Origin: Candidatus Kryptonium sp.
Lineage (GTDB): Bacteria > Bacteroidota > Ignavibacteria > Kryptoniales > Kryptoniaceae
Direction: 5' to 3'
Assembly: GCA_025060635.1 (NCBI GenBank)
Contig: JANXBN010000002.1
Span: 248,001 to 312,000, forward strand
Length of the DNA stretch: 64,000 nt
Below are positions 19,215 through 32,103 of this stretch, piece by piece. A model generated the notes under the pieces. It was not told the DNA's origin and made no database searches. It worked only from the letters and a program-made list of their open reading frames with translations. Numbering within the stretch: the first letter of the stretch is position 1; each line of letters opens with the position of its first letter. The position numbers were made by a program, and so were the translations under genes.

Positions 19215-19309
19215 TTTAGAAGTTAGTTCTTTGATTATGGTTTTGTTTGTTTAAACCTTTTCGTTTTCTCAAAAATACACCAAAAAACAAACTTTAGGAG
19301 GTAATTACT

Positions 19310-19759
19310 ATGGGTCAACAGCAACTTTTACTCATCGTTCTTGGCGTCATCATAGTTGGAATTGCAATTGCAGTTGGAATTTCAATGTTCAAGAGCAGTG
19401 CGGTTGACGCCAACAGAAGCGCAATTGCAGGTGATCTTGCAAATCTTGCTGCAAAAGCTCAGAGATATTACAGAACCCCCGTTGAGCTTGGTGGAGGTGG
19501 GAATTCATTTGCTAATTTTGCTTTAAGCCCACTTGATACTGGAAATGCTAATGGTAGTTACAGAGTGGAGATATTAACAGGTGATCAAAAAATAGTTATT
19601 CATGCTCTTGGAAAGGAAAGGATTGGGGCTAATTTTGTTGCAGCTATTGATTGTGTAGATGCTGATAGAAGTAGAATTTATCAAGGTATTGCGTCTGGAT
19701 TGCAAACGACCGACGCAAATAGAGGTTATGGAACCTTACAAGGTTGGACACCTCAATAA
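19310..19759 (+). CDS. Pilin-like protein, probable major subunit of the pilus locus
   Basis: 149 residues. The N-terminus MGQQQLLLIVLGVIIVGIAI is a one- or two-residue leader ending in Gly followed at once by a hydrophobic helix, as in type IV prepilins cut by a prepilin peptidase. The residue at mature position 5 is Leu, not the usual Glu, and there is no positive charge in the leader. The rest is a globular domain with Tyr/Gly-rich parts and a single Cys. The strong AGGAGG site, own promoter and following hairpin suggest high expression, as for a major pilin. Assignment rests on position and N-terminus, not on homology I could test. Confidence 0.7.
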   Translation: MGQQQLLLIVLGVIIVGIAIAVGISMFKSSAVDANRSAIAGDLANLAAKAQRYYRTPVELGGGGNSFANFALSPLDTGNANGSYRVEILTGDQKIVIHALGKERIGANFVAAIDCVDADRSRIYQGIASGLQTTDANRGYGTLQGWTPQ

Positions 19760-19790
19760 AATTTAGCTCCTCCTAAAAATTCCTCCTAAG

Positions 19791-19818
19791 AGGGGGATGC
19801 TTTTATAAGCGTCCCCCT
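19791..19818 (+). terminator. Hairpin after the pilin-like gene (partial terminator or mRNA-stabilising element)
   Basis: AGGGGGA-GCTT pairs with AAGC-TCCCCCT around a four-base loop. It is followed by GG and then a loose T-rich stretch, not a pure T run, so partial read-through into pilC is likely. This would give more pilin mRNA than assembly mRNA. Confidence 0.6.
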
Positions 19819-19855
19819 GGTTAAAATTTTATTTTATTAAGGAGGTGAGAAAAAT

Positions 19856-21220
19856 TTGCCTGATTATCGCTTTGAGGGTGTAACATTGACGGGGCGCCCC
19901 GTTCAGGGAATAGTGTCTGCCGATAGTCTTGCTGAAGCAAAGAAAAAAATTAAGCAACTTGCAGAGCAGAGAAAATTTAAGGTAACGAAGATTCAAAAGC
20001 GAAAAACTTTTATTTATAAAGTTCAACGAGATAGTGAAAAGCCAATTACTGGTGAACAAAGGGCTTTTACGAAAGAAGAAGTAAAGCAAGCACTTGAAAA
20101 ACTTGGATATAAAGTTGTAAATATTCAACCTAAAGTTCTTGATTTTAAATTTAAACCACCTGAAACTGAAATAGTTACATTTGTTCGTGTCAGCGCTGAT
20201 TTGTTAAGAGAAAAACTTCCTTATAATGAAGTCCTTCAATTGCTTATAAACGATGTTCAGCATCCGACGCTTAGAGAGGCGTTGAGGGAAATAAACAATG
20301 ATCTTCGTCAAGGTAAGGACAGCGAAGAAGCGTTCTTAAAGCAGGAAAAAGTTTTGGGTAAATTCACGGCAAGAATGCTTGGGCTTGCTTCAAAAAGCGG
20401 AAATATGGCGGAGATTTACGAGAGCACCGCAAAATTTCTTGAGAGGAATGCTGAATTTAAGAAGAATCTTAAAAGTGCTTTGATAATGCCTATTTTCACA
20501 TTGATCGTTTTGTTTATTGCTGTTATTTTCTATGTTGCATATATTTTTCCAGAGACAGCAGAACTTTTCCTTAAACTTGGAACTGAACTTCCACCAATGA
20601 CAGCAGCTACATTAGAGCTAAGCCGATTCTTGCTTGATAACATGACTTATATTTTCTTTGGGTCAGCTTTATTGACTTTTGCTTTTATTTATTTCATTAG
20701 AACTCCTAAAGGACAGTTTTTGCGTGATAAGTATATTATAAAAATTCCTGTTCTTGGACCTTTGATTCACAAAACAACTATTGAAATTTTTTGTAGAGTT
20801 TTCTATGCTCTTTATGCAGGATCGGGGGAAAACATAGAGGCTATTCGCCTTGCAGCTGAAGCATGTGGTAATAAGTATATGGAACATCAGATAAAAACAA
20901 TAGCAATACCGATGATGTTAAGTCAAGGTAAGGGACTCGTAGAAGCATTTGAAGCAACGGGGGTTTTCACAAAAACAGCACTTGCAAGATTTCATTCTGG
21001 GGCGGAAACAGGAACCGTTAAACAAACAGCACTTCAAATTGCAAATTATTACGAAAAAGAAACAGTTTATAAACTTAAAAACGCGGTTGATTTTATTCAG
21101 CTTATGATTGCGATGATAATTATGATCGTCATGACCTTGCTTACGCTTATATCTTCCGAAACGGCAATGGTTAAACCGAAGACGCCATATACGATGATAC
21201 TTCCATTTCAAAGTTTTTAA
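19856..21220 (+). CDS. pilC: Type IV pilus inner-membrane platform protein PilC/GspF
   Basis: 454 residues from a TTG start preceded by AAGGAGGTGAG. It begins YRFEGVTLTGRPVQGIV, the usual GspF N-terminal repeat; a second copy-like segment (FTKEEVKQALEKLGYKV) makes the protein about 50 residues longer than the norm. Two GspF domains carry membrane helices at about 212-235, 262-285 and 415-438. Motif LREINNDLRQGKDSEEAF and KSGNMAEIYESTA are typical. It connects the assembly ATPase to the growing pilus. Second gene of the locus. Confidence 0.92.
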   Translation: MPDYRFEGVTLTGRPVQGIVSADSLAEAKKKIKQLAEQRKFKVTKIQKRKTFIYKVQRDSEKPITGEQRAFTKEEVKQALEKLGYKVVNIQPKVLDFKFKPPETEIVTFVRVSADLLREKLPYNEVLQLLINDVQHPTLREALREINNDLRQGKDSEEAFLKQEKVLGKFTARMLGLASKSGNMAEIYESTAKFLERNAEFKKNLKSALIMPIFTLIVLFIAVIFYVAYIFPETAELFLKLGTELPPMTAATLELSRFLLDNMTYIFFGSALLTFAFIYFIRTPKGQFLRDKYIIKIPVLGPLIHKTTIEIFCRVFYALYAGSGENIEAIRLAAEACGNKYMEHQIKTIAIPMMLSQGKGLVEAFEATGVFTKTALARFHSGAETGTVKQTALQIANYYEKETVYKLKNAVDFIQLMIAMIIMIVMTLLTLISSETAMVKPKTPYTMILPFQSF

Positions 21221-21244
21221 AAATTTTCACGAGGTGATGTAAAA

Positions 21245-23032
21245 ATGACGGTTGGTGTAGACATTACGGATAAACTTGGTTATACGCTTTTAAAGAAAGG
21301 AATAATTGATTATGAAACACTTGAGCGAGCTTTGAAGATCAAAGAGCAAGAAGATTCAAAGACGAGAAGAAGTTTGGCTCAAATTCTTGTGTTTGATTTT
21401 GGAGTTGATCATGACAGTGTGTTTAAAGAAGTTGCAAACCTTTATGGGTTCAGGGAGATCTATCTTGCGGATGAAAATATTGATAAAAACAGAATTGACT
21501 TTATAAGGAAGCTCATTGAGCCTTTGCCGCAAGCATTGAAAGATCAAATGAGAGAGGAAAAAATCTTACCATTGAAAAATGACGAACAAAGACCAGATAA
21601 ACTTATTTTAATATCTGCCGATCCAACGAGTAGGAGCATACCTCTTATTGCTAGGTCTCTTGGGGCTAAGAGATATGAAGTGTGTTATGTGAGATTAAAA
21701 GATATACAAAATTTGTTTGATAAAGTTTTCCCGCCGGAGAATGAGTTTTTAAAAGTTCTTGAAAATTCAAAAATTGAAATAACCGAGGATGAGCTTGAAG
21801 AGGAAACGCTTGATGAAGCAGCAATTGAAGCTGAAATAAATAAAAGTATGCTTGTTAATCTCGTTGAGGGAATGCTTGTTGAGGCAGTTAGAAAAGGCGC
21901 AAGCGATATTCATATAATTCCGAAGGATTCAAGGACCACCGAAATTCACTTTAGAATAGATGGAAAGTTAAGATTATGGCATGTTCAGGACGGTATAAGA
22001 CCTGAAGCAATTGCTGCGGTTGTCAAAGATAGATCAAAAAATGTTGATAGATTTGAGCGTGAAATGGCGCAAGATGGTTTTATTCAGAGGAAAGTTGATG
22101 GGCATATGATAAGATATAGAGTTTCTGTGCTTCCGATCGTCGGGAAGGAGTTTCAGTATAAGTTTGAAAGCATTGTAATCCGAGTTCTTGATGATAGAAA
22201 AGTTATAACTGATCTTGACAAGCTCGGATTCCAAGGTAAAGCAAAAGAGTTCTTTATCAAGGCAATTTCAAAGCCACAAGGAATGGTTATTGTAACTGGT
22301 CCAACTGGAAGTGGAAAATCAACAACATTAATGGCAGCATTACATTATATTATTAAACCAGAAATAAATGTTTTAACAGTTGAAGATCCTGTTGAATATA
22401 TAATTCCGGGTGCAAGGCAGTTGAAGATTGGTCCAAAAATGAATTTTGAGCAAGCATTAAGAGCTATCTTGCGTCACGATCCTGATGTCGTTATGGTTGG
22501 TGAAATAAGAGATAAGGAAACAGCGGAAATCGCTATAAAGCTTGCAAACACGGGGCACTTGACATTTTCAACCCTTCATACTAATGATGCACCAAGCGCA
22601 ATATCAAGATTGTATAAAATGGGAATTGAAACATTTCTCATTGCTTATGCTATAAATATCATAATTGCTCAAAGATTAATACGAAAGCTTTGCGAGAAAT
22701 GCAAGCGTCCTATAGAAGATTTGGATCCTGCTGTTCCTTTGAGTTTAGGATTTACAGAGGAAGAAATTAAAAATACTGTTTTCTATGAAGCCGTTGGATG
22801 CGATCAGTGTCATGGTGGATATAAAGGAAGAGTCGCAATTCATGAAGCGCTTTATTTTACAAAGGAAATAAGAAGACTGATCTTTAAAACGGGTAGGGAT
22901 ATTGATGAAGAAGCTATAAGAGAACAAGCAATCAAAGATGGAATGCTGACATTACGCGCAGCTGGAAGAGAAAGAATTAAACAAGGAGTCACAACGCTTG
23001 AGGAAGTAGCTCATGCAACAACGGAAGATTAA
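21245..23032 (+). CDS. pilB: Type IV pilus assembly ATPase PilB/GspE
   Basis: 595 residues. N-terminal MshEN/GspE-N type domain (about 1-190), then the ATPase: Walker A GPTGSGKSTT from residue 352, Asp box and Walker B region HDPDVVMVGEIRD, His box STLHTNDAPSAISR. Four cysteines in CEKCKRP and CDQCHGGY form the zinc site of GspE-type extension ATPases. It powers pilus assembly at the inner membrane. It lies 24 bases after pilC, with GAGGTGA before the ATG. Confidence 0.95.
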   Translation: MTVGVDITDKLGYTLLKKGIIDYETLERALKIKEQEDSKTRRSLAQILVFDFGVDHDSVFKEVANLYGFREIYLADENIDKNRIDFIRKLIEPLPQALKDQMREEKILPLKNDEQRPDKLILISADPTSRSIPLIARSLGAKRYEVCYVRLKDIQNLFDKVFPPENEFLKVLENSKIEITEDELEEETLDEAAIEAEINKSMLVNLVEGMLVEAVRKGASDIHIIPKDSRTTEIHFRIDGKLRLWHVQDGIRPEAIAAVVKDRSKNVDRFEREMAQDGFIQRKVDGHMIRYRVSVLPIVGKEFQYKFESIVIRVLDDRKVITDLDKLGFQGKAKEFFIKAISKPQGMVIVTGPTGSGKSTTLMAALHYIIKPEINVLTVEDPVEYIIPGARQLKIGPKMNFEQALRAILRHDPDVVMVGEIRDKETAEIAIKLANTGHLTFSTLHTNDAPSAISRLYKMGIETFLIAYAINIIIAQRLIRKLCEKCKRPIEDLDPAVPLSLGFTEEEIKNTVFYEAVGCDQCHGGYKGRVAIHEALYFTKEIRRLIFKTGRDIDEEAIREQAIKDGMLTLRAAGRERIKQGVTTLEEVAHATTED

Positions 23033-23051
23033 TAAAATTTGAATAAGTTTT

Positions 23052-23603
23052 ATGGGCACAGGACAAACATTAATAACAATTTTGGCGCTGGCTCTTCTTT
23101 CGCTTGCGGTTTTGAATATAAATCGTGGGCTTTCAAGTCATGATGTCTCACTAGCTCAAAATAGATATCGTCTTGAAGCACTATCAATCGCAACTTCATA
23201 TATTGAGCAAGCATCACAATATTACTTTGATGAAGCCGTCGCAGATACAAATAACACTGCCAAAACAGATCCAAACACATTTTCGGCTACGCTTGGACTT
23301 GATGCTGATGATACAACAGCAATGGGGATGATAGAAATTGATGATTTTGACGACTATAACAGTATAACTCGCATAGATACAGGAAAAAGCAGCGTGATTT
23401 ATAAAGTATTTTTCAAAGTTAATTATGTTGATCTATCTGGCAATAGAGTCGTGCCTGTTTCATATAAGACATTTCATAAACAGATGACAGTTTTTGTGAT
23501 GGATAATTACGATCCACCTTTAATTTACAGAGAGACAGCGCTTGGAAAAGTGAGGGATACTGTTAAAATTAGCTTCGTTTATAGTTATTGGTTCTATAAT
23601 TAA
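23052..23603 (+). CDS. Pilin-like minor subunit candidate
   Basis: 183 residues. N-terminus MGTGQTLITILALALLSLAV has the same plan as the first pilin-like protein: a tiny leader with Gly and then a hydrophobic helix, again without Glu at position 5. After about residue 24 it becomes polar (NRGLSSHDVSLAQNRYRLEA), with a long N-terminal helix as in pilins. Position between pilB and other pilin-like genes supports a minor pilin. No homology claim beyond this. Confidence 0.6.
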   Translation: MGTGQTLITILALALLSLAVLNINRGLSSHDVSLAQNRYRLEALSIATSYIEQASQYYFDEAVADTNNTAKTDPNTFSATLGLDADDTTAMGMIEIDDFDDYNSITRIDTGKSSVIYKVFFKVNYVDLSGNRVVPVSYKTFHKQMTVFVMDNYDPPLIYRETALGKVRDTVKISFVYSYWFYN

Positions 23604-23616
23604 AATTTTAATTTCT

Positions 23617-24309
23617 ATGGCCTCAATTCTTGATTACATAATGGCAACTGTCATCGGTGGAGTTATTTTACTTATTACGATTGTTGTCACTGACACCACA
23701 ACCCGCGATTTTGCCAATTATAATTCCGATGCCATTACTCAAATAAATCTTGCGAATATGTCCAGCATAATTGAATACGATTTGAGAAAAATGGGGTATG
23801 GGGTTCCAGAAGGGAATCGTATTCTTTTTATAGCCCGTCCTAATCATCTTAAGTTTATAGCTCATTTGAATCGTGAGTTTGACTACTTCGGGCATGTAAT
23901 ACCGCATAGAGATAACATTGCTGATACAATTGAGTATATTATAACTCTTGCTGAAAAAATTGATTATGGCGACACAAGTTTGTTTATTTATAAAATCACG
24001 AGAATATTAAAGGTCACTGGTGAAGGAGTTCGTTCAACAGACATTGGAAGAATCGGGAATGGACAAGTTTTTAGATACCTTGATCAAATAGGTAATCCAG
24101 TTGATCCAGGAAGTGAGTTAGTTGCGTCAAAGATGGTTGAGGTTACTTTAACAGCCTTTAATCCTCGTGTTGTGTTATCACCTGAACTTGTGCGTAAGGA
24201 GGTTTCTGGCATTAAGGATCGGGAGTTTAGAAAGAAAGAGTTGAGACGATTACTGCGTACATCCTTCTGGCGACAGACACGGCTTGTTTCAAAGAATTTA
24301 AGAAGATAA
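23617..24309 (+). CDS. Pilin-like / PilW-like minor subunit candidate
   Basis: 230 residues. N-terminal hydrophobic helix at about 8-26 (MATVIGGVILLITIVVT) followed by a polar helix (INLANMSSIIEYDLRKMGYGVPEGNRI). The SSIIEYDLRKMGYG segment is like the helix-to-globule junction of PilW/PilV-type minor pilins. It lies 13 bases after the previous gene and 14 before the next. Confidence 0.55.
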   Translation: MASILDYIMATVIGGVILLITIVVTDTTTRDFANYNSDAITQINLANMSSIIEYDLRKMGYGVPEGNRILFIARPNHLKFIAHLNREFDYFGHVIPHRDNIADTIEYIITLAEKIDYGDTSLFIYKITRILKVTGEGVRSTDIGRIGNGQVFRYLDQIGNPVDPGSELVASKMVEVTLTAFNPRVVLSPELVRKEVSGIKDREFRKKELRRLLRTSFWRQTRLVSKNLRR

Positions 24310-24323
24310 GGAGGGGAAGAGAT

Positions 24324-25676
24324 ATGTTTGGAAAAACATCACTGTTAATACTCATTGGGTTTATCACAGCGTTTTCAATTTATCAACTTCGCTTAACTCG
24401 TGCTGTAATTTCTGCAACTGATAGTTTTAATTATTATTATGCGAAAACCTTGGTTCATGAAACAGCTGTAAGTGCAATGAATATCGGGGTAAGTAGAGTT
24501 TGGAAGGATGGAACGATAAATACAACCTTTAATGTCGTAATGAACAATTGCACAGCTGTGGTTAGAATTCATCCTGTTATACCTGATTCAATTGTTAGAT
24601 TAAGTGTTAAAGCAAGAGGATATGCATTTGTAGATACATATTATGCTAAATATAGAAGACCATACCAAATTGAGGATTCAGCGTTTGCATATTTTGTATA
24701 TTCAAGTGCTCCTGTGACACCAGCTTCAAGATATTTTTGGTATACTGGAACAGAATTTTATGCTGGAGCTCCTGTTTACTGGATAGATGGTGATACAGTT
24801 TGGGGTCCTGTTCATACTAATGGTGTTTTACATACATATGGCTCACCTGTTTTTTATGACAAAGTTACTGCATATTCTGGAATAAATCCACAACCGACCT
24901 CTAACAGAAATAAAGCAAAATTCTATGGTGGATGGGAAGTTGGTATATATGCTGAAATTCCATCCGATATGAACAGGACTAAAACAGCAGCAATAAATGG
25001 TGGTGGAGTTATTAACCAAGCAACTTATTTTAAATTTTTGCCTGATGGCAGAGTTGTAAGAAGAAGAATAACTGGATGGACACAACAATGGATCGGAAGC
25101 TCAAGTTATAGAAGACAGCGATCAGTACCGCAATTAGCTGCACCTGATACGATTAGTATTTCACAGTTAAGCTCAACAGGTGTTATTTGGGTTAGAGGTG
25201 AAGTTGTTGTAGAAGGCACTCTAAATGGTCAATTAACTATCTTAGCTGATGGAAATATAAGAATATGGGATGATATAAGATATGCAAGTGATCCGAATGT
25301 TAATCCGAATTCTGATGATTTTCTTGGGCTCGTCTCATATCAAAATGTCATAATAGCTGATAGCGATCCAAATCAAAACGATGTCGTTATTCAAGCGGCT
25401 ATCATGGCGTACAATGGTGGTTCCAATGACCGCAGTTTTATAGCTGAAAACTGGGATAAGAGGCCACCTTCTGGAGCTATTTATTTAACGGGAAGCATAT
25501 GTCAAGAGCAAAGGGGACCGGTGGGACGATTCGCTGGAGCTAGTGGAATAATTCAAAATGGTTTTAGTAAAAGATATAGATATGATCCAAGGTTTAGAGA
25601 TAAAGCACCGCCGTATTATCCGCTTGTAAGCTACCCAGGTATACGACAATTAAGGTTAGTTTCATGGTGGGAATGA
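24324..25676 (+). CDS. PilX-like (DUF4900-type) pilus-associated protein
   Basis: 450 residues. N-terminus MFGKTSLLILIGFITAFSIY has a three-residue leader ending in Gly, a Lys and a hydrophobic helix. The large C-terminal part is rich in Tyr, Trp and Gly; segments such as DTVWGPVHTNGVLHTYGSPV and GEVVVEGTLNGQLTILADGN resemble DUF4900/PilX-N proteins that have a prepilin helix and a beta-helical extracellular domain. It may be a tip-located adhesin or minor pilin. A GGAGGGGA site precedes the ATG. Confidence 0.6.
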   Translation: MFGKTSLLILIGFITAFSIYQLRLTRAVISATDSFNYYYAKTLVHETAVSAMNIGVSRVWKDGTINTTFNVVMNNCTAVVRIHPVIPDSIVRLSVKARGYAFVDTYYAKYRRPYQIEDSAFAYFVYSSAPVTPASRYFWYTGTEFYAGAPVYWIDGDTVWGPVHTNGVLHTYGSPVFYDKVTAYSGINPQPTSNRNKAKFYGGWEVGIYAEIPSDMNRTKTAAINGGGVINQATYFKFLPDGRVVRRRITGWTQQWIGSSSYRRQRSVPQLAAPDTISISQLSSTGVIWVRGEVVVEGTLNGQLTILADGNIRIWDDIRYASDPNVNPNSDDFLGLVSYQNVIIADSDPNQNDVVIQAAIMAYNGGSNDRSFIAENWDKRPPSGAIYLTGSICQEQRGPVGRFAGASGIIQNGFSKRYRYDPRFRDKAPPYYPLVSYPGIRQLRLVSWWE

Positions 25677-25700
25677 AAATAAAACTTTTAAGTTAACCCT

Positions 25701-26945
25701 ATGCCAGTAAATCCGCAAATTATTAAAGAGGCGAAAGAATTGTTGAGTTCGCTTGCTAGTAAAGTTCCAGTTACACTTTTTAGTGTAGAGAAACAAATGT
25801 ATATCGGTGATGAGCTAATAAGAAAGATGTCGGAAAATCAGAAACTTATCTTGAGAGATTTGATAAATATGTTTCTTTTGAGAATGAGAGAACTTGAGGC
25901 ATCTGATATAGATTTTGGGGGGTGGGGTTCCAGGAAAATGGTTTGGCTTAGAATTCACGGCGCCAAAAAACCAATACCAGAATTTGGAACTTATGAAACT
26001 GACGAGTTTAACATTTTGATACAAAGCTTGCTTATGGAAAGACAAAGGCAATACCTTTACGAGAATAGAAATCTTGATTTTTCATACACATTTAAAGATC
26101 AGAATGGAACAATTTATCGTTATCGTGCGGATGCTTATTTTGAACTTGATGATCTTGCTTTAAATATGAGGGCGATAAATACTCAAATACGACCTTATGA
26201 AAGTTATGGATTTCATCCGAATGTTACTAAAGTTTTAAGTTTGCAATATACAAAAGAGGGATTAATTCTCGTTACGGGGATAACAGGTTCTGGTAAAAGC
26301 ACCACGCTTGATGCTATAGTTGATCTTAACAACAGGACTGTTGAAGGACATATTATTATAATTGCCTCGCCAGTTGAATATGTTCACGAATCAAAGCGTT
26401 GTATAATTCGCCATAGAGAAGTTGGTAGAGATACTATGTCGTTTAAACAGGGAACGATAGAAGCGTTGCGTCAAGATCCTGACATAATTATAATTGGGGA
26501 GATGAGGGATCCAGATACAATCATGGCTGCACTTGAAGTAGCAGATAGTGGGCATAAAGTTTTATCAACACTTCATACTTCTTCAGCTGTTGAAAGTATT
26601 GATAGAATAATTGGAGAAGTTCCACCAATTGAACAAGAAAGAGTTAGAAATAGGTTAGCTGATATTTTAAAATGTGTGATCTCTCAGAAACTTGTCCCAA
26701 GTTTAGATGGGAGAAGAGTTCTTGCCAAAGAAGTAATGGTTATGACACCTTCAATAAGATCGGCTATAAAGAACAATAACACTGGTGAAATTTATCAAAT
26801 GATCGCTGAAGGAGCTGAATATGGGATGATAACGATGGAGCAAGATTTAAGACGACTTTATCTTGAAAGAAAAATTTCGCTTGAAACGGCTATCAATTTT
26901 GCAAATAACAAACGAAGAATGCAACAACTTCTACAAGCAGCATAA
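25701..26945 (+). CDS. pilT: Pilus retraction ATPase PilT-like
   Basis: 414 residues. Walker A GITGSGKSTT starts at residue 193; the Asp box/Walker B region is RQDPDIIIIGEMRDPDT and the His box STLHTSSAVESIDR. The C-terminal TPSIRSAIKNNNTGEIYQMI corresponds to the AIRNLIRE region that marks PilT. No zinc cysteines, unlike PilB. It indicates that the pilus is retractile, separating this locus from a type II secretion system. The N-terminal 60 residues are longer than in typical PilT. Follows the PilX-like gene by 24 bases. Confidence 0.88.
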   Translation: MPVNPQIIKEAKELLSSLASKVPVTLFSVEKQMYIGDELIRKMSENQKLILRDLINMFLLRMRELEASDIDFGGWGSRKMVWLRIHGAKKPIPEFGTYETDEFNILIQSLLMERQRQYLYENRNLDFSYTFKDQNGTIYRYRADAYFELDDLALNMRAINTQIRPYESYGFHPNVTKVLSLQYTKEGLILVTGITGSGKSTTLDAIVDLNNRTVEGHIIIIASPVEYVHESKRCIIRHREVGRDTMSFKQGTIEALRQDPDIIIIGEMRDPDTIMAALEVADSGHKVLSTLHTSSAVESIDRIIGEVPPIEQERVRNRLADILKCVISQKLVPSLDGRRVLAKEVMVMTPSIRSAIKNNNTGEIYQMIAEGAEYGMITMEQDLRRLYLERKISLETAINFANNKRRMQQLLQAA

Positions 26946-26975
26946 TAATATTCAAACAACAAAATTATTATCGCG

Positions 26976-28577
26976 ATGGCAAGAAAAAAATTTTCTGGAA
27001 AAATTGCGGTTGGAATTTTCGTTGATGGTTTATCGCTCCAGGTTGCTTGTCTTGCAAAGTCGGGGAAAAAGATCAAATTTATTGATGCGCAAATAGTTAA
27101 TCTTGCAACTAAGCTTGAAGCGATTTACACAGGTGCCCAAGTATTAGAACAGATTGAACCGATTTCTGAAACGACCCCTATAGATATAACCTCTGAAGCA
27201 TCAGCTACTGACCTTCTTCTAACCGAAACAGGAAGAGGAGCTCAAGATAATGCTTCTATTCTTATTGGCGTTTTAAGCAGATATCCGAAGCGGAAGTATA
27301 AACTTGCCATCTCAGCACCTGAGCCGTATATATTTTATTCTACTTTTGAATCTAATTGGGGATTGAAGGGAAATAAATTAAAAGAAAAAATTATTGAGCA
27401 GATATCAAAAGGAAGGACAGGGGAACCACTTAAATCAGACGCCATCAACTATCTTGAGTTTCCAGATGGTTCTGTTCTTGCTATTGTCCGAGATTCACGA
27501 ATTACATTGATTGACTTGCTTGATGGTATCAAAAAATCAATCGGTGGAAGAATTCCAAAAATTTCGTTCGTTGAAACACCTGAACTTTCACTGGTTAATT
27601 TAGTTAAATTAAACTACAAGTTCCCGCAAAATTCCATTACTGTGATAATTTACATCGGGCATGAGTTTAGTAGATTAATATTTATGAAGGGGAATGATCT
27701 TTTCCATATCTCCCCGTTGATAGGTGAAGGCGTTGATTCATACAATATAGCTAATACAATTTATAGCAGATTGATACTTGAACAGGATAGTCTCGGATTG
27801 TCGGTTATAAATAATATAATTCTTGCTGGTGAGGCACAAGCCGCTGGTGTTAAGGAAATTCTTACGCAGATGTTTCCTGAAGATGTAAACATTGACTATA
27901 TTAAGTTTCCGAACTTATCTCCGGATGGCGCAGATCCATTGCTTTTTGAAAGCTTGCCGAGGGTCGCTGTTGCTATCGGTTCAGCTTGGAGAACCCTTGA
28001 GATTGATAGAAAAGATCTTTATTCAATTGACCTAACCCCTTTTGAAATTCGCGAAGGTCAAAAGGTTTTTAAACTTGGAATTCTTGGATGGTTGTTCTTA
28101 ATTCTCATTCCGATTTTAACTTTCCAAATAACCACGAGGATAGCCCAGCTCAACCGAACTCTTTCCGAAACTCAAACGGAACTTCAGAGAAAGAAGTCGG
28201 AGCTTGCAGAACTTCAGATATTACAACAGCAAGTAGATATAGCAAGGCAACGGCTTGCTTATTATAAATCTACCTTTGGGGTTTTAGATTCAATGAGAGT
28301 TAACACAGATATTTGGAGCAGTTTTTTGCAAAAGATTGCAACTGAAGCTCAAAATGTTGGGAGAATTTGGATCACTGACATAAGTGCATCTGATCCAAGA
28401 ACAATAACTATAAAAGGATATTCTCTTTATAGAAATAGAATTCCAAGATTCTCAAATGCTATTGGTAATGCGACATTGATGCAGGTCCAAGTTCAAGAGA
28501 TAAGAGGTAGAACAGTATATCAATTTGAGATAAAGGCAAGCATCACTCCTGAAATAGCAAAAACAGCAAAAAAATAA
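26976..28577 (+). CDS. Fused PilM-PilN protein of the pilus alignment complex
   Basis: 533 residues. About 1-360 is an actin-like PilM-type domain (VGIFVDGLSLQVACLAK; YKLAISAPEPY; IIYIGHEFSRLIFMKGN). This is followed by one membrane helix (about 366-387, LGILGWLFLILIPIL), a coiled coil (about 390-425, LSETQTELQRKKSELAELQ) and a PilN-type periplasmic domain (about 430-530). In most type IV pilus systems PilM and PilN are separate; one chain here gives a GspL-like plan. An insertion of about 45 residues follows the first strands. Gene order pilMN-pilOP-pilQ is the standard order. Confidence 0.82.
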   Translation: MARKKFSGKIAVGIFVDGLSLQVACLAKSGKKIKFIDAQIVNLATKLEAIYTGAQVLEQIEPISETTPIDITSEASATDLLLTETGRGAQDNASILIGVLSRYPKRKYKLAISAPEPYIFYSTFESNWGLKGNKLKEKIIEQISKGRTGEPLKSDAINYLEFPDGSVLAIVRDSRITLIDLLDGIKKSIGGRIPKISFVETPELSLVNLVKLNYKFPQNSITVIIYIGHEFSRLIFMKGNDLFHISPLIGEGVDSYNIANTIYSRLILEQDSLGLSVINNIILAGEAQAAGVKEILTQMFPEDVNIDYIKFPNLSPDGADPLLFESLPRVAVAIGSAWRTLEIDRKDLYSIDLTPFEIREGQKVFKLGILGWLFLILIPILTFQITTRIAQLNRTLSETQTELQRKKSELAELQILQQQVDIARQRLAYYKSTFGVLDSMRVNTDIWSSFLQKIATEAQNVGRIWITDISASDPRTITIKGYSLYRNRIPRFSNAIGNATLMQVQVQEIRGRTVYQFEIKASITPEIAKTAKK

Positions 28578-28591
28578 AGTTTTAATCTAAA

Positions 28592-29473
28592 GTGCCATAC
28601 AAAACAAGAAATACGCTAATACTTCTCACTTTCCTTGTGATAATCCTTGCTGTTGGTGGATATTTTATTCTTTATCATTTCCCAAAGGAAATCAAAGAAG
28701 TTAAAGCTGAAATTCAAAGAGTTGATCAACAGATAAATGCCCTTTCAGGTTTGCAAATTGAACTTTACAATTTGCAGAAACAAATAAAAGAAGAACAGGA
28801 AAAACTCGCACAGCTTGATAAACAAATAGTCCCAGATGTCACGCCGGCTATGACATACTCTTATCTAAATTCAATTTTAAACTACGCCGGTTTTGTAAAG
28901 TTTGATATGCTTTATATGGGAAGCAAAAAAGCCCAGAAATATGCATATAACATTTACGATATAAAAGGTGAAGCATCTTTTGATAATATTTACAAGTTCA
29001 TTTGGTATCTTGAACGCGGACCTCAAATTTATAGAATAGCACGCTTTGACCTTCGTGGAGTAGAAACAAGAGATGAGGAGACGAAGCAGTTTTCAATCGT
29101 CGTTCCATTTCAGATGGAAATACACGCGCTTTATGCTGATGTTAAGGATTTGCCACCTATAAAAAGAACGCTTGAAGATGTCGTCGTTGCCGAGGTCAAA
29201 AATCCATTTATACCTTACATTTACAGGGAGTTGCCACCGAATACAAGAGGATTGCTTGAAGTTGAAAGGGCTGATTTAAAAGCGGTTATTCCGGGAAGAG
29301 CTTTTATAGCTGATCATACTGGGAAAATTCATGTTCTAAAAGAAGGAGACGAGGTTTATCTTGGTTATGTCACAAAAATTGATATTGAGAAAAATCAAGT
29401 TGAATTCACACTTAACAAAGCGGGCATCGTTGAAAAGTTTGTCTTGAAGTTAAGGTTTGAACAACAAAAATAA
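28592..29473 (+). CDS. Fused PilO-PilP-like protein
   Basis: 293 residues from a GTG start. Membrane helix at about 9-29, coiled coil at about 33-80, then a PilO-like ferredoxin-fold part (about 85-190). The C-terminal about 75 residues (LLEVERADLKAVIPGRAF, HVLKEGDEVYLGYVTKID) look like the beta-domain of PilP, which in other bacteria is a separate lipoprotein contacting the secretin. A fusion would tie the inner-membrane ring to PilQ in one chain. The PilP part is a pattern call and less certain than PilO. Confidence 0.72.
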   Translation: MPYKTRNTLILLTFLVIILAVGGYFILYHFPKEIKEVKAEIQRVDQQINALSGLQIELYNLQKQIKEEQEKLAQLDKQIVPDVTPAMTYSYLNSILNYAGFVKFDMLYMGSKKAQKYAYNIYDIKGEASFDNIYKFIWYLERGPQIYRIARFDLRGVETRDEETKQFSIVVPFQMEIHALYADVKDLPPIKRTLEDVVVAEVKNPFIPYIYRELPPNTRGLLEVERADLKAVIPGRAFIADHTGKIHVLKEGDEVYLGYVTKIDIEKNQVEFTLNKAGIVEKFVLKLRFEQQK

Positions 29474-29485
29474 TAGAGAGGTGAG

Positions 29486-30712
29486 ATGGGACGAAAAATA
29501 ATTTTTTTATTACTTTTCATTCAAATTTTATCGGGTTTAGCTCTTTCACAAATTGGAGGGCGTCCGAGAGAATTAAGAAGAGCGTATGTGGCACCTGAGG
29601 AAATAGTTTCAATGTCAAGAACGATGCCTTTTAATCAGGCGCTTCAAATTTTTAACGACATTAGTAAAAAGTTTCTTGGCAAAGTTATAATTGACCCTGA
29701 GACGAGGATAAGCCCTATTGGAGTTGATATTGATAAGATGCATTGGCTTGACGCATTTGAATTGATCCTAAGAGCGAATAAACTATGGTATGAGGAGTAT
29801 GCAGATTATATAAAAATAGTTCCACTTGCTGAAGTTACAGGACCACCAACCCCTACTGCTCCAACTGAGGAAGAAAAGGCAAAGATACATTTTGAAAGTC
29901 GTGAGGTGATGATTTCAGCCGTATTTTTTGAGGCGGACGCATCAAAATTAAAGCAATATGGTTTTAGTTGGGATTTCTTTCGTGGCAGGGGAGTGAACAT
30001 AGGTGTTACAATGTCAGCTGCCGAAGGAAAAACGGGTTTGCTTACGATTGATGTTAATAATCCTGACATTGATTTTGGAAATTTGGTTGCGATTTTCAAA
30101 GCCCTTGAATCTCAACAAATTGGTGAGGTTGTTGCAAATCCAAGGATCACAGTTAGATCAGGGGAACAAGGACAAATTCAAGTTGGAAGCGACATTTCCG
30201 TTACAGTTAGAGATTTTGCTGGAAACGCAATTACGCAGTTTTTTTCAACTGGTTCAATTATTAGGGTAAAACCAGAGGTTATAAAATTTGATACTGTTTA
30301 TTTTATTGTCCTTGAACTTAACATTGAAAGAAGCAATGTCGCAGGCGTAGCGCCACAAATAACAATAAATAAATCTTCAGCACAAACGAAAATTTTACTT
30401 CTTGATGGAGAGGAAACAATAATTGGCGGTCTTTACATAAATGAGGAAAGAGTAACTCGTGAAGGAGTCCCAATACTTAAAGATTTACCTTGGTGGTTTT
30501 TTGGATTAAGGTATTTATTTGGGTTTGATGTTAAAACAGTTGCAAAGAAGGAGTTGATAATACTTTTAAAAGCTGAGATTTTACCGACACTTGCTGAAAG
30601 GTTAAGGGAAAGATCTCTAAAAGTTGGTGAACGTCCGATGTTAAAACAAAGCAGAGAAGAATTACTAAAGGCACTTGAAAATTATAAAAAGCAGTTGAAA
30701 CCTGAAAAATAA
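29486..30712 (+). CDS. pilQ: PilQ-type secretin, compact form
   Basis: 408 residues with a signal peptide (about 1-21, FLLLFIQILSGLALSQ). One N-domain (about 45-120) precedes the secretin barrel domain, which shows EVVANPRITVRSGEQGQIQVG and LLLDGEETIIGGLY. It is much shorter than typical PilQ (600-750), lacking AMIN domains and repeated N1 domains. It forms the outer-membrane channel for the pilus. A GAGAGGTGAG site precedes the ATG. Follows pilOP by 12 bases. Confidence 0.9.
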   Translation: MGRKIIFLLLFIQILSGLALSQIGGRPRELRRAYVAPEEIVSMSRTMPFNQALQIFNDISKKFLGKVIIDPETRISPIGVDIDKMHWLDAFELILRANKLWYEEYADYIKIVPLAEVTGPPTPTAPTEEEKAKIHFESREVMISAVFFEADASKLKQYGFSWDFFRGRGVNIGVTMSAAEGKTGLLTIDVNNPDIDFGNLVAIFKALESQQIGEVVANPRITVRSGEQGQIQVGSDISVTVRDFAGNAITQFFSTGSIIRVKPEVIKFDTVYFIVLELNIERSNVAGVAPQITINKSSAQTKILLLDGEETIIGGLYINEERVTREGVPILKDLPWWFFGLRYLFGFDVKTVAKKELIILLKAEILPTLAERLRERSLKVGERPMLKQSREELLKALENYKKQLKPEK

Positions 30713-30726
30713 ACTTGGGTCTCGTG

Positions 30727-32103
30727 ATGAGAAAAGTATTGATTTTTTCCATATTGGTTTTTTTGCTTTTTTCTGGATGTAAAAAAGCAGTTGAGCCAGA
30801 AGAAGAGAAACAGCAAAAAACCGTTGTTTTAAACGGACGAGTGCTTGAAGAAGCAACAAATGCTCCGATTAGAAATGCTGTCGTGCGAATTCTTGGCATA
30901 ACCCCAGCGCTTATAACATATACAGATTCATTAGGAAGATACCAATTTAATTTTCAAATTGAGGTTGAAACTGAACTTCAAATTGTAGCGTTCAAAGAAG
31001 GTTATGAACCTGACACAAGTAAGGTATTAGCTCTTCCGGGAAGAAAGGTTGATGTTCCAGTTTTAATGTTAAAAAGAGTTGTTTCAGAAGTTCCAACAAG
31101 CGGTGAGCCAGCAAGTATTGTTCTTGTTTCACAATCAGCGAAAAACATAGGTGTAAAAGGAAGTGGTTCTGTTGAGACCGCTCAACTTGTTTTTGAAGTT
31201 CAAGATTCAAGTGGGAAACCCGTTGACCTTGCTCATTCGGTTGAAGTTAGCTTCAGGATTGGTTCAGGACCAGGTGGCGGTGAATTTGTTCATCCCCCAA
31301 GAGCTAGAACTGATAGCAAGGGACGTGTGACGGCTAATGTTGTAAGTGGAACAAGAGCAGGTGTTGTTCAAATTGTTGCTGAAGCTGTCTCTGGAACAAG
31401 GACAATAAGATCATTACCAGTGGTGATTGTAATTCATGGTGGGCTACCGGATTCAGCTCATTTCAGCATCGCTCCAGACAAGTTGAATTTTCCTGGCTAT
31501 AACATTTTCGGATTAACTAATAGGATAACAGCTTATGTTGGAGATAAATATGGAAATCCAGTCAAACCCGGAACCGCAGTGTATTTTACAACGACTGGAG
31601 GGATAATTGAAGGTTCAGTTTTGACAGATAACAGAGGACAGGGCAGTGTTAACTTAATTTCAGCTGAGCCAAGACCTGTTCATCCAGTCCTCGGTCCAGG
31701 TTACGCAGTTGTAACTGCAACAACAGCTGATGAAAATCAACGAACAATAAAAGCTGAAACTATAGTTCTTTTCTCAGGGATACCTCAAGTGACAGTCACA
31801 CCTTCAACATTTAGTATCCCGAACCTTGGGTCCCAGATTTTTAATTATACTGTGAGCGATCAAAATGGAAATCCATTAGCAGGTGGGACCACGATAAAAG
31901 TTTCTATTGATGGTAAAGATATAAAAGCGTTAGGAGATCTTGATATAACTTTGCCAGATACCAGAGATAGAAGTTGGACAAGGTTTTCATTTGCAATTCA
32001 AGATACAACTGGCGATGATACACCGCGCCCTGTTTTGATTCGTATTTCTACAACTGGACCAAATGGGTCTGCAACTGTTAATATCTCAGGAACGGTAAGA
32101 TAA
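30727..32103 (+). CDS. Lipoprotein with carboxypeptidase-regulatory-like and bacterial Ig-like domains
   Basis: 458 residues from the ATG at 30727 (upstream TTG 30715 and GTG 30724 are in frame but give no better leader). Lipoprotein signal peptide ending LLFSGC. Next comes a carboxypeptidase-regulatory-like domain (about 35-110, VVLNGRVLEEATNAPIRNAVV), then Big_1/invasin-type Ig domains (about 125-365; RTDSKGRVTANVVSGTRAG, LTDNRGQGSVNLI). It follows the secretin by only 14 bases, so it is probably part of the pilus operon, perhaps as a surface adhesin or secretin partner; the role is an inference. Confidence 0.75.
   Translation: MRKVLIFSILVFLLFSGCKKAVEPEEEKQQKTVVLNGRVLEEATNAPIRNAVVRILGITPALITYTDSLGRYQFNFQIEVETELQIVAFKEGYEPDTSKVLALPGRKVDVPVLMLKRVVSEVPTSGEPASIVLVSQSAKNIGVKGSGSVETAQLVFEVQDSSGKPVDLAHSVEVSFRIGSGPGGGEFVHPPRARTDSKGRVTANVVSGTRAGVVQIVAEAVSGTRTIRSLPVVIVIHGGLPDSAHFSIAPDKLNFPGYNIFGLTNRITAYVGDKYGNPVKPGTAVYFTTTGGIIEGSVLTDNRGQGSVNLISAEPRPVHPVLGPGYAVVTATTADENQRTIKAETIVLFSGIPQVTVTPSTFSIPNLGSQIFNYTVSDQNGNPLAGGTTIKVSIDGKDIKALGDLDITLPDTRDRSWTRFSFAIQDTTGDDTPRPVLIRISTTGPNGSATVNISGTVR

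Follow-up and report, generated by a model that had tools for sequence, protein, structure and literature searches.

How a type IV pilus could be assembled from subunits that carry no leader is the question raised by this locus. According to a standard review, only a few components are conserved in all type IV filaments, among them a class III signal peptide on the subunits and the prepilin peptidase (PMC4471445). Classical prepilins have a leader of 6-26 residues that a dedicated peptidase cuts after a Gly, and Glu5 mutants do not homopolymerise (PMC4471445). The window, that is, the whole 64,000-nucleotide stretch analysed here, comes from the 2.5 Mb genome of a hot-spring bacterium (97% complete). 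It contains a type IV pilus-like operon, a single run of plus-strand genes from 19310 to 30712, in which four pilin-like ORFs have a hydrophobic helix that begins directly at the N-terminus. The gene order is pilin A, PilC, PilB, minor pilins B, C and D, PilT, a PilM/N-like protein, a PilO-like protein and a secretin, as follows.

19289..19309, plus strand: Shine-Dalgarno region of pilin A, tttaggaggtaattact, with AGGAGG, read from the sequence
19310..19759, plus strand: pilin A, the major pilin candidate, MGQQQLLLIVLGVIIVG..., 149 aa, no leader and a single possible start
19856..21220, plus strand: PilC/GspF inner-membrane platform protein, TTG start, Pfam T2SSF 4.6e-33; adjoins pilin A in relatives
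21245..23032, plus strand: PilB assembly ATPase, T2SSE 2.9e-109, PDB PilB 2e-94, TIGR02538 type_IV_pilB 3e-139
23052..23603, plus strand: minor pilin B, MGTGQTLITILALALL..., GspI/PilV-like by position only
23617..24309, plus strand: minor pilin C, MASILDYIMATVIGG..., with a conserved Asp6, GspJ/PilW-like
24324..25676, plus strand: minor pilin D, MFGKTSLLILIGF..., 450 aa, GspK/PilX-like by position only
25701..26945, plus strand: PilT retraction ATPase, TIGR01420 335.6 bits, over the curated cut-off of 319.1, PDB PilT 4e-70
26976..28577, plus strand: PilM/PilN-like protein, 533 aa, weak Pfam PilN match at 463-522 and weak Amuc_1101 PilM-like match; kept in relatives
28592..29473, plus strand: PilO-like protein, by position and a very weak PilO match; kept in relatives
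29486..30712, plus strand: secretin (PilQ-like), Pfam Secretin 1.3e-28, TIGR02515 PilQ 3.9e-25
30715..32103, plus strand: putative Ig-like lipoprotein at the operon end; homologues follow the secretin in many relatives, and its membership of the system is uncertain

Profile matches identify PilB, PilC, PilT and the secretin clearly, and solved structures of relatives do the same for PilB and PilT. Against the TIGR02538 type_IV_pilB equivalog, PilB scores 465.1 bits, below the curated cut-off of 675.65. The operon thus has the PilB/GspE-family ATPase and PilC/GspF platform expected of a type IV filament, together with the PilT and outer-membrane secretin expected of a type IVa pilus. The alignment complex seems compacted: the protein at 26976-28577 has the appearance of PilM and PilN joined in one chain, and a PilP-like C-terminus is possible for the PilO-like protein, judging by sequence. 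Much longer versions of the Ig-like lipoprotein occur elsewhere, about 1,560 codons in one relative (L060), and its sequence makes a pilus-linked outer-membrane adhesin possible. In several families (loci L047-L050 and L070), response-regulator genes lie 3' of the secretin, in some cases with large kinase-like genes, as in the regulation of twitching-type pili.

In each of the four pilin-like proteins, residue 1 is already the beginning of a 19-residue segment above the usual transmembrane threshold. One explanation is that the starts are mis-assigned, and that this is an ordinary type IV pilus in which a true upstream start would give a normal leader. The genes at 23052 and 23617, which have no clear Shine-Dalgarno site in the window, would favour it; those at 19310 and 24324 have clear sites at a suitable distance (AGGAGG and AGGAGGGG). 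However, reading upstream in frame to the first stop (4, 3, 21 and 31 codons) yields no ATG, GTG or TTG for any of the four genes; a misread start therefore cannot conceal a normal leader. The same holds more widely. The pilin A start aligns at the same residue in 150 distinct homologues from several phyla; a Shine-Dalgarno-like site precedes it in 140 of them, and in 143 the upstream sequence offers no other start. Unless rare non-standard starts are used, the sequence refutes mis-assignment, and we give it next to no weight. There is no class III signal peptide and no room for a leader in any of the four genes, and the 150 homologues are equally leaderless.

The four ORFs had been singled out in an earlier, sequence-only reading of this DNA, and we confirm their positions and quoted N-termini. 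That reading had proposed a divergent pilin class, to be given up should homologues turn up with classical leaders ending in Gly and followed by FTLIE. We sought such homologues, and all 150 relatives of pilin A begin with MGQQQ or a near variant, which strongly supports the proposal. The N-terminus of pilin A, MGQQQLLLI, is near-invariant across this set, with Gly2 in 149, Gln4 in 148, Gln5 in 150 and Leu7 in 147. Conservation is 97% over residues 1-9 versus 40% from residue 56 to the end. Not one of the 150 has an acid or a Lys/Arg in residues 2-24, and the major pilin lacks the Glu5 of type IV pilins. The earlier statement that none of the four proteins has Glu5 is correct, but it overlooked an acid at Asp6 of the 23617 protein, pilin C. 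All 32 homologues of pilin C have such an acid, 26 of them at position 6 and the other six at position 8, and Asp6 becomes position 5 once the initiator Met is removed. Pilin B has Gln5 in 31 of 36 homologues. Pilin D has no acid near its start and carries Lys/Arg within residues 2-10 in 29 of 32. The different subunit-docking rule suggested earlier could take a concrete form, in which an invariant Gln5 in A is accompanied by a conserved Asp in C set against Lys/Arg in D.

That these proteins are pilins at all is suggested by operon position, helix length and predicted fold, which together make it by far the likeliest assignment. The AlphaFold2 model of pilin A, built with 57 homologues, has a mean pLDDT of 90.7 and predicts a helix of 54 residues (2-55) followed by six strands. 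The model of pilin C (pLDDT 77) predicts a helix at 2-57 plus beta-strands. Both models thus have the layout of a type IV pilin, in which a long N-terminal helix packs on an antiparallel beta-sheet. Its best Foldseek matches in the PDB are the EpsI:EpsJ pseudopilin entries 2ret and 3cfi, at probability 0.91-0.95 and E values of 0.07-0.18, above 0.05; the matched chains are presumably those of EpsJ. Foldseek gave pilin A no significant match in the PDB, with the Shewanella type IV pilin 4d40 at rank 47 (TMt 0.55). Of the 57 members of the pilin A set, 23 weakly match the ComP_DUS profile of the ComP minor pilin, the best of them at an E value of 1e-4. Pfam and NCBIfam gave no useful match for pilins B and C, and the large C-terminal region of pilin D has a weak DUF4900 match. 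By position, and for C also by predicted fold, B, C and D are probably analogues of GspI/J/K or PilV/W/X.

The leaderless pilin gene also occurs outside the operon. A second leaderless paralogue in the same genome (L174, G000:C5:152020-152331, minus strand; MGQQQLLLLVLGAIIVTIAIAVAINIF..., 127 aa) lies far from the pil operon and adjoins genes that look like lptF/lptG, and some genomes hold up to ten copies (G199, G230 and G008). The pilin was also seen in MAGs labelled Deltaproteobacteria and Patescibacteria (L143 and L129), whose sequences look Ignavibacteria- or Calditrichota-like; these records are probably mislabelled or mis-binned.

The sequence-only reading took Met-Gly as a tiny leader whose Gly would suit a prepilin peptidase, and it advised a search of the genome for the cognate enzyme. 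We ran this search. In the own genome, profile searches found neither Peptidase_A24 nor its N-terminal domain PF06750, the archaeal-type PF06847 gave no match over cut-off, and the N_methyl pilin profile had no match even at E<=10. Of 14 control genomes, 12 gave the expected A24 match, and the same searches also detected A24 in several relatives. With no recognisable prepilin peptidase in the genome, the description of Met-Gly as a leader is misleading. We then extended the census to 293 genomes of the class, 289 of which are >=90% complete and <=5% contaminated. Of the 293, 160 have a match to the pilin A profile and 14 to Peptidase_A24; as all 14 are among the 160, A24 is absent from 146/160 pilin-positive genomes. 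Cleavage of a tiny leader by prepilin peptidase is accordingly unsupported. Seven pilin-positive genomes without an A24 match are single contigs (G048, G112, G116, G144, G156, G171 and G174), so assembly gaps cannot explain the absence. A complete chromosome record, CP070707.1, also has no A24 and the same pilin N-terminus. In the single-contig genomes PF06750 gave no more than weak matches, one of them marginally over cut-off in G144 and with an internal stop. The one match with a readable ORF (L166), in the same size class of about 340 aa, proved to be a radical-SAM-like protein and was rejected as a peptidase. These results indicate that pilD is absent in most of the lineage.

Borrowing of an A24 enzyme from another system in the same genome is a known arrangement for MSH loci, and a superfamily survey found such peptidase-lacking loci only in genomes with a peptidase elsewhere (PMC6668835). 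The 14 class genomes with A24 would allow for it here, as would A24 genes in 9 of 14 other pilin-bearing genomes, taken mainly from Calditrichota and KSB1, where the peptidase is thus available. We read eight A24 regions from six relatives. None lies within the pilin A operon; seven of the eight have a canonical pilin nearby, such as GFSMVELMVVLVIIG or GFSMVELMVVLVIIGILVLLALP, or an N_methyl match, and the A24 clusters apparently have their own additional genes for a pilus or for secretion. Pilin A keeps MGQQQLLL in the genomes of these regions, and the idea that A24-bearing relatives might have normal leaders on these pilins was rejected, their N-termini being unchanged. Since the N-terminus is identical with or without A24, and the 146 genomes above have no A24 anywhere to borrow, this explanation is scarcely credible.

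A different enzyme is the more serious alternative, although we still consider it unlikely. A protease that escaped recognition, either a divergent prepilin peptidase or another membrane protease, could process the pilins behind Met-Gly or at some other site. Gly2, found in all but one of the pilin A homologues, resembles the Gly-1 of classical prepilins, and a novel family would escape the profiles used. On the other side, pilins B, C and D would have to be cut by the same enzyme, yet Gly2 is merely common in them and not conserved, and the operon has no extra membrane protease. The known domains are missing from the own genome, as A24 is from the seven single-contig genomes, and a leader of this kind would fall far short of the classical 6-26 residues (PMC4471445).

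The absence of pilD might also mean that the operon is a degenerate remnant, non-functional or non-filamentous, whose real pilins and pilD have been lost. In the Melioribacter roseus genome pilB, pilC, pilT and pilQ are present, pilA and pilD were not found, and the set was assumed to be incomplete (PMC3534657); the weak Foldseek support for pilin A points the same way. However, the pilin is kept in more than half of the class genomes (160/293) and in other phyla, with the strict N-terminal conservation described above. Motors and platform are 55-70% identical across the class, there are several paralogous pilins per genome, and no frame contains a stop. A remnant is thus very improbable. A M. 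roseus MAG (L151, G314) has the same pilin and no A24; leaderless pilins and a missing pilD therefore explain the reported pilA/pilD gap, and the missing pilins are supplied.

Taken together, our results make it quite probable that the product of this operon is a machine resembling a type IV pilus, of type IVa-like character given its PilT motor, which uses neither prepilin peptidase nor N-methylation and whose pilins are synthesised with no leader to cleave. The starts, the missing leaders, the lack of A24 genes, the conservation and the operon itself can be read from sequence; pilus formation, Met removal and the roles of Gln5 and of the Asp-Lys pair are what we infer, and the following steps should be read in that light. 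Translation would start at the first residue of the pilin helix, the ribosome setting the N-terminus directly. Gly at position 2 makes a good substrate for methionine aminopeptidase, an established rule. Because Gly follows the initiator Met of pilin A, this Met is probably removed, leaving a mature Gly-Gln-Gln-Gln-Leu. Among the minor pilins, removal is predicted for no more than a part, namely 20 of 36 B, 27 of 32 C and 17 of 32 D homologues; the pilin D of the window starts with Met-Phe. Pilin A, held in the inner membrane by a signal-anchor that is never cleaved, would then be available for assembly driven by PilC and PilB, and the minor pilins B, C and D would probably prime the filament. 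Normal prepilins are oriented by the positive-inside rule, but in pilins A, B and C no positively charged residue precedes the helix; an N-in orientation is thus not fixed by this rule, and the expected topology is not assured. In the major pilin, Gln5 may replace Glu5 as a polar contact, and the acid of pilin C and the Lys/Arg of pilin D could pair in a salt bridge within the tip complex. Canonical GspJ has the acid and GspK has none, and the suggested C/D pairing would be in keeping with this by analogy.

We would put at even chances the broader proposal of a peptidase-free type IV pilus lineage spanning Kryptonia, Ignavibacteria, Calditrichota, KSB1 and Balneola-type bacteria, in which the N-terminus is defined by initiation, Gln5 stands in for Glu5, and an Asp (C)-Lys/Arg (D) pair keys the tip complex. 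Leaderless pilins in a pilus machine that otherwise looks complete, with no peptidase gene in most genomes, depart from what has been regarded as a rule for nearly all filaments of this kind. Such pili are annotated as incomplete because searches look for a leader and for pilD. If a widespread machine does without either, the chemistry of assembly would not depend on cleavage, N-methylation or Glu5, and the roles of cleavage and Glu5 would become directly testable in cultured species, for example M. roseus. In the open-access literature we came across no description of leaderless type IV pilins as a class and no occurrence of the pilin A N-terminal peptide in paper texts. On peptidase-free type IV pili, our searches turned up only the M. 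roseus gap and Nanoarchaeota without a detected peptidase.

Among known systems, the type IVa pilus of the Neisseria, Pseudomonas and Myxococcus PilA type shares PilB, PilC, PilT, PilM/N- and PilO-like proteins and the secretin in one operon, as well as, going by the predicted models, a pilin of long N-terminal helix and beta-sheet, and a minor pilin set. It differs in having a class III signal peptide, a prepilin peptidase and a Glu5 in the major pilin; the major pilin described here has an invariant MGQQQLLLI start. The pseudopilins GspI, GspJ and GspK of type II secretion resemble the minor pilins in forming three consecutive subunits, in the closeness of the C model to EpsI:EpsJ, and in an acid kept in the J-like subunit and absent from the K-like one; here, however, there is no leader, and B and D are assigned by position only. 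MSH pilus loci likewise have no prepilin peptidase gene in the locus, but their genomes supply one from another system (PMC6668835), whereas most genomes here have none. The Cytophaga-type T2SS/T4P of Bacteroidetes (CHU_3191-3201) belongs to the same broad group, and similar canonical clusters occur as a second system in a few relatives; unlike the operon described here, the Cytophaga cluster includes an A24 peptidase (PMC5553014).
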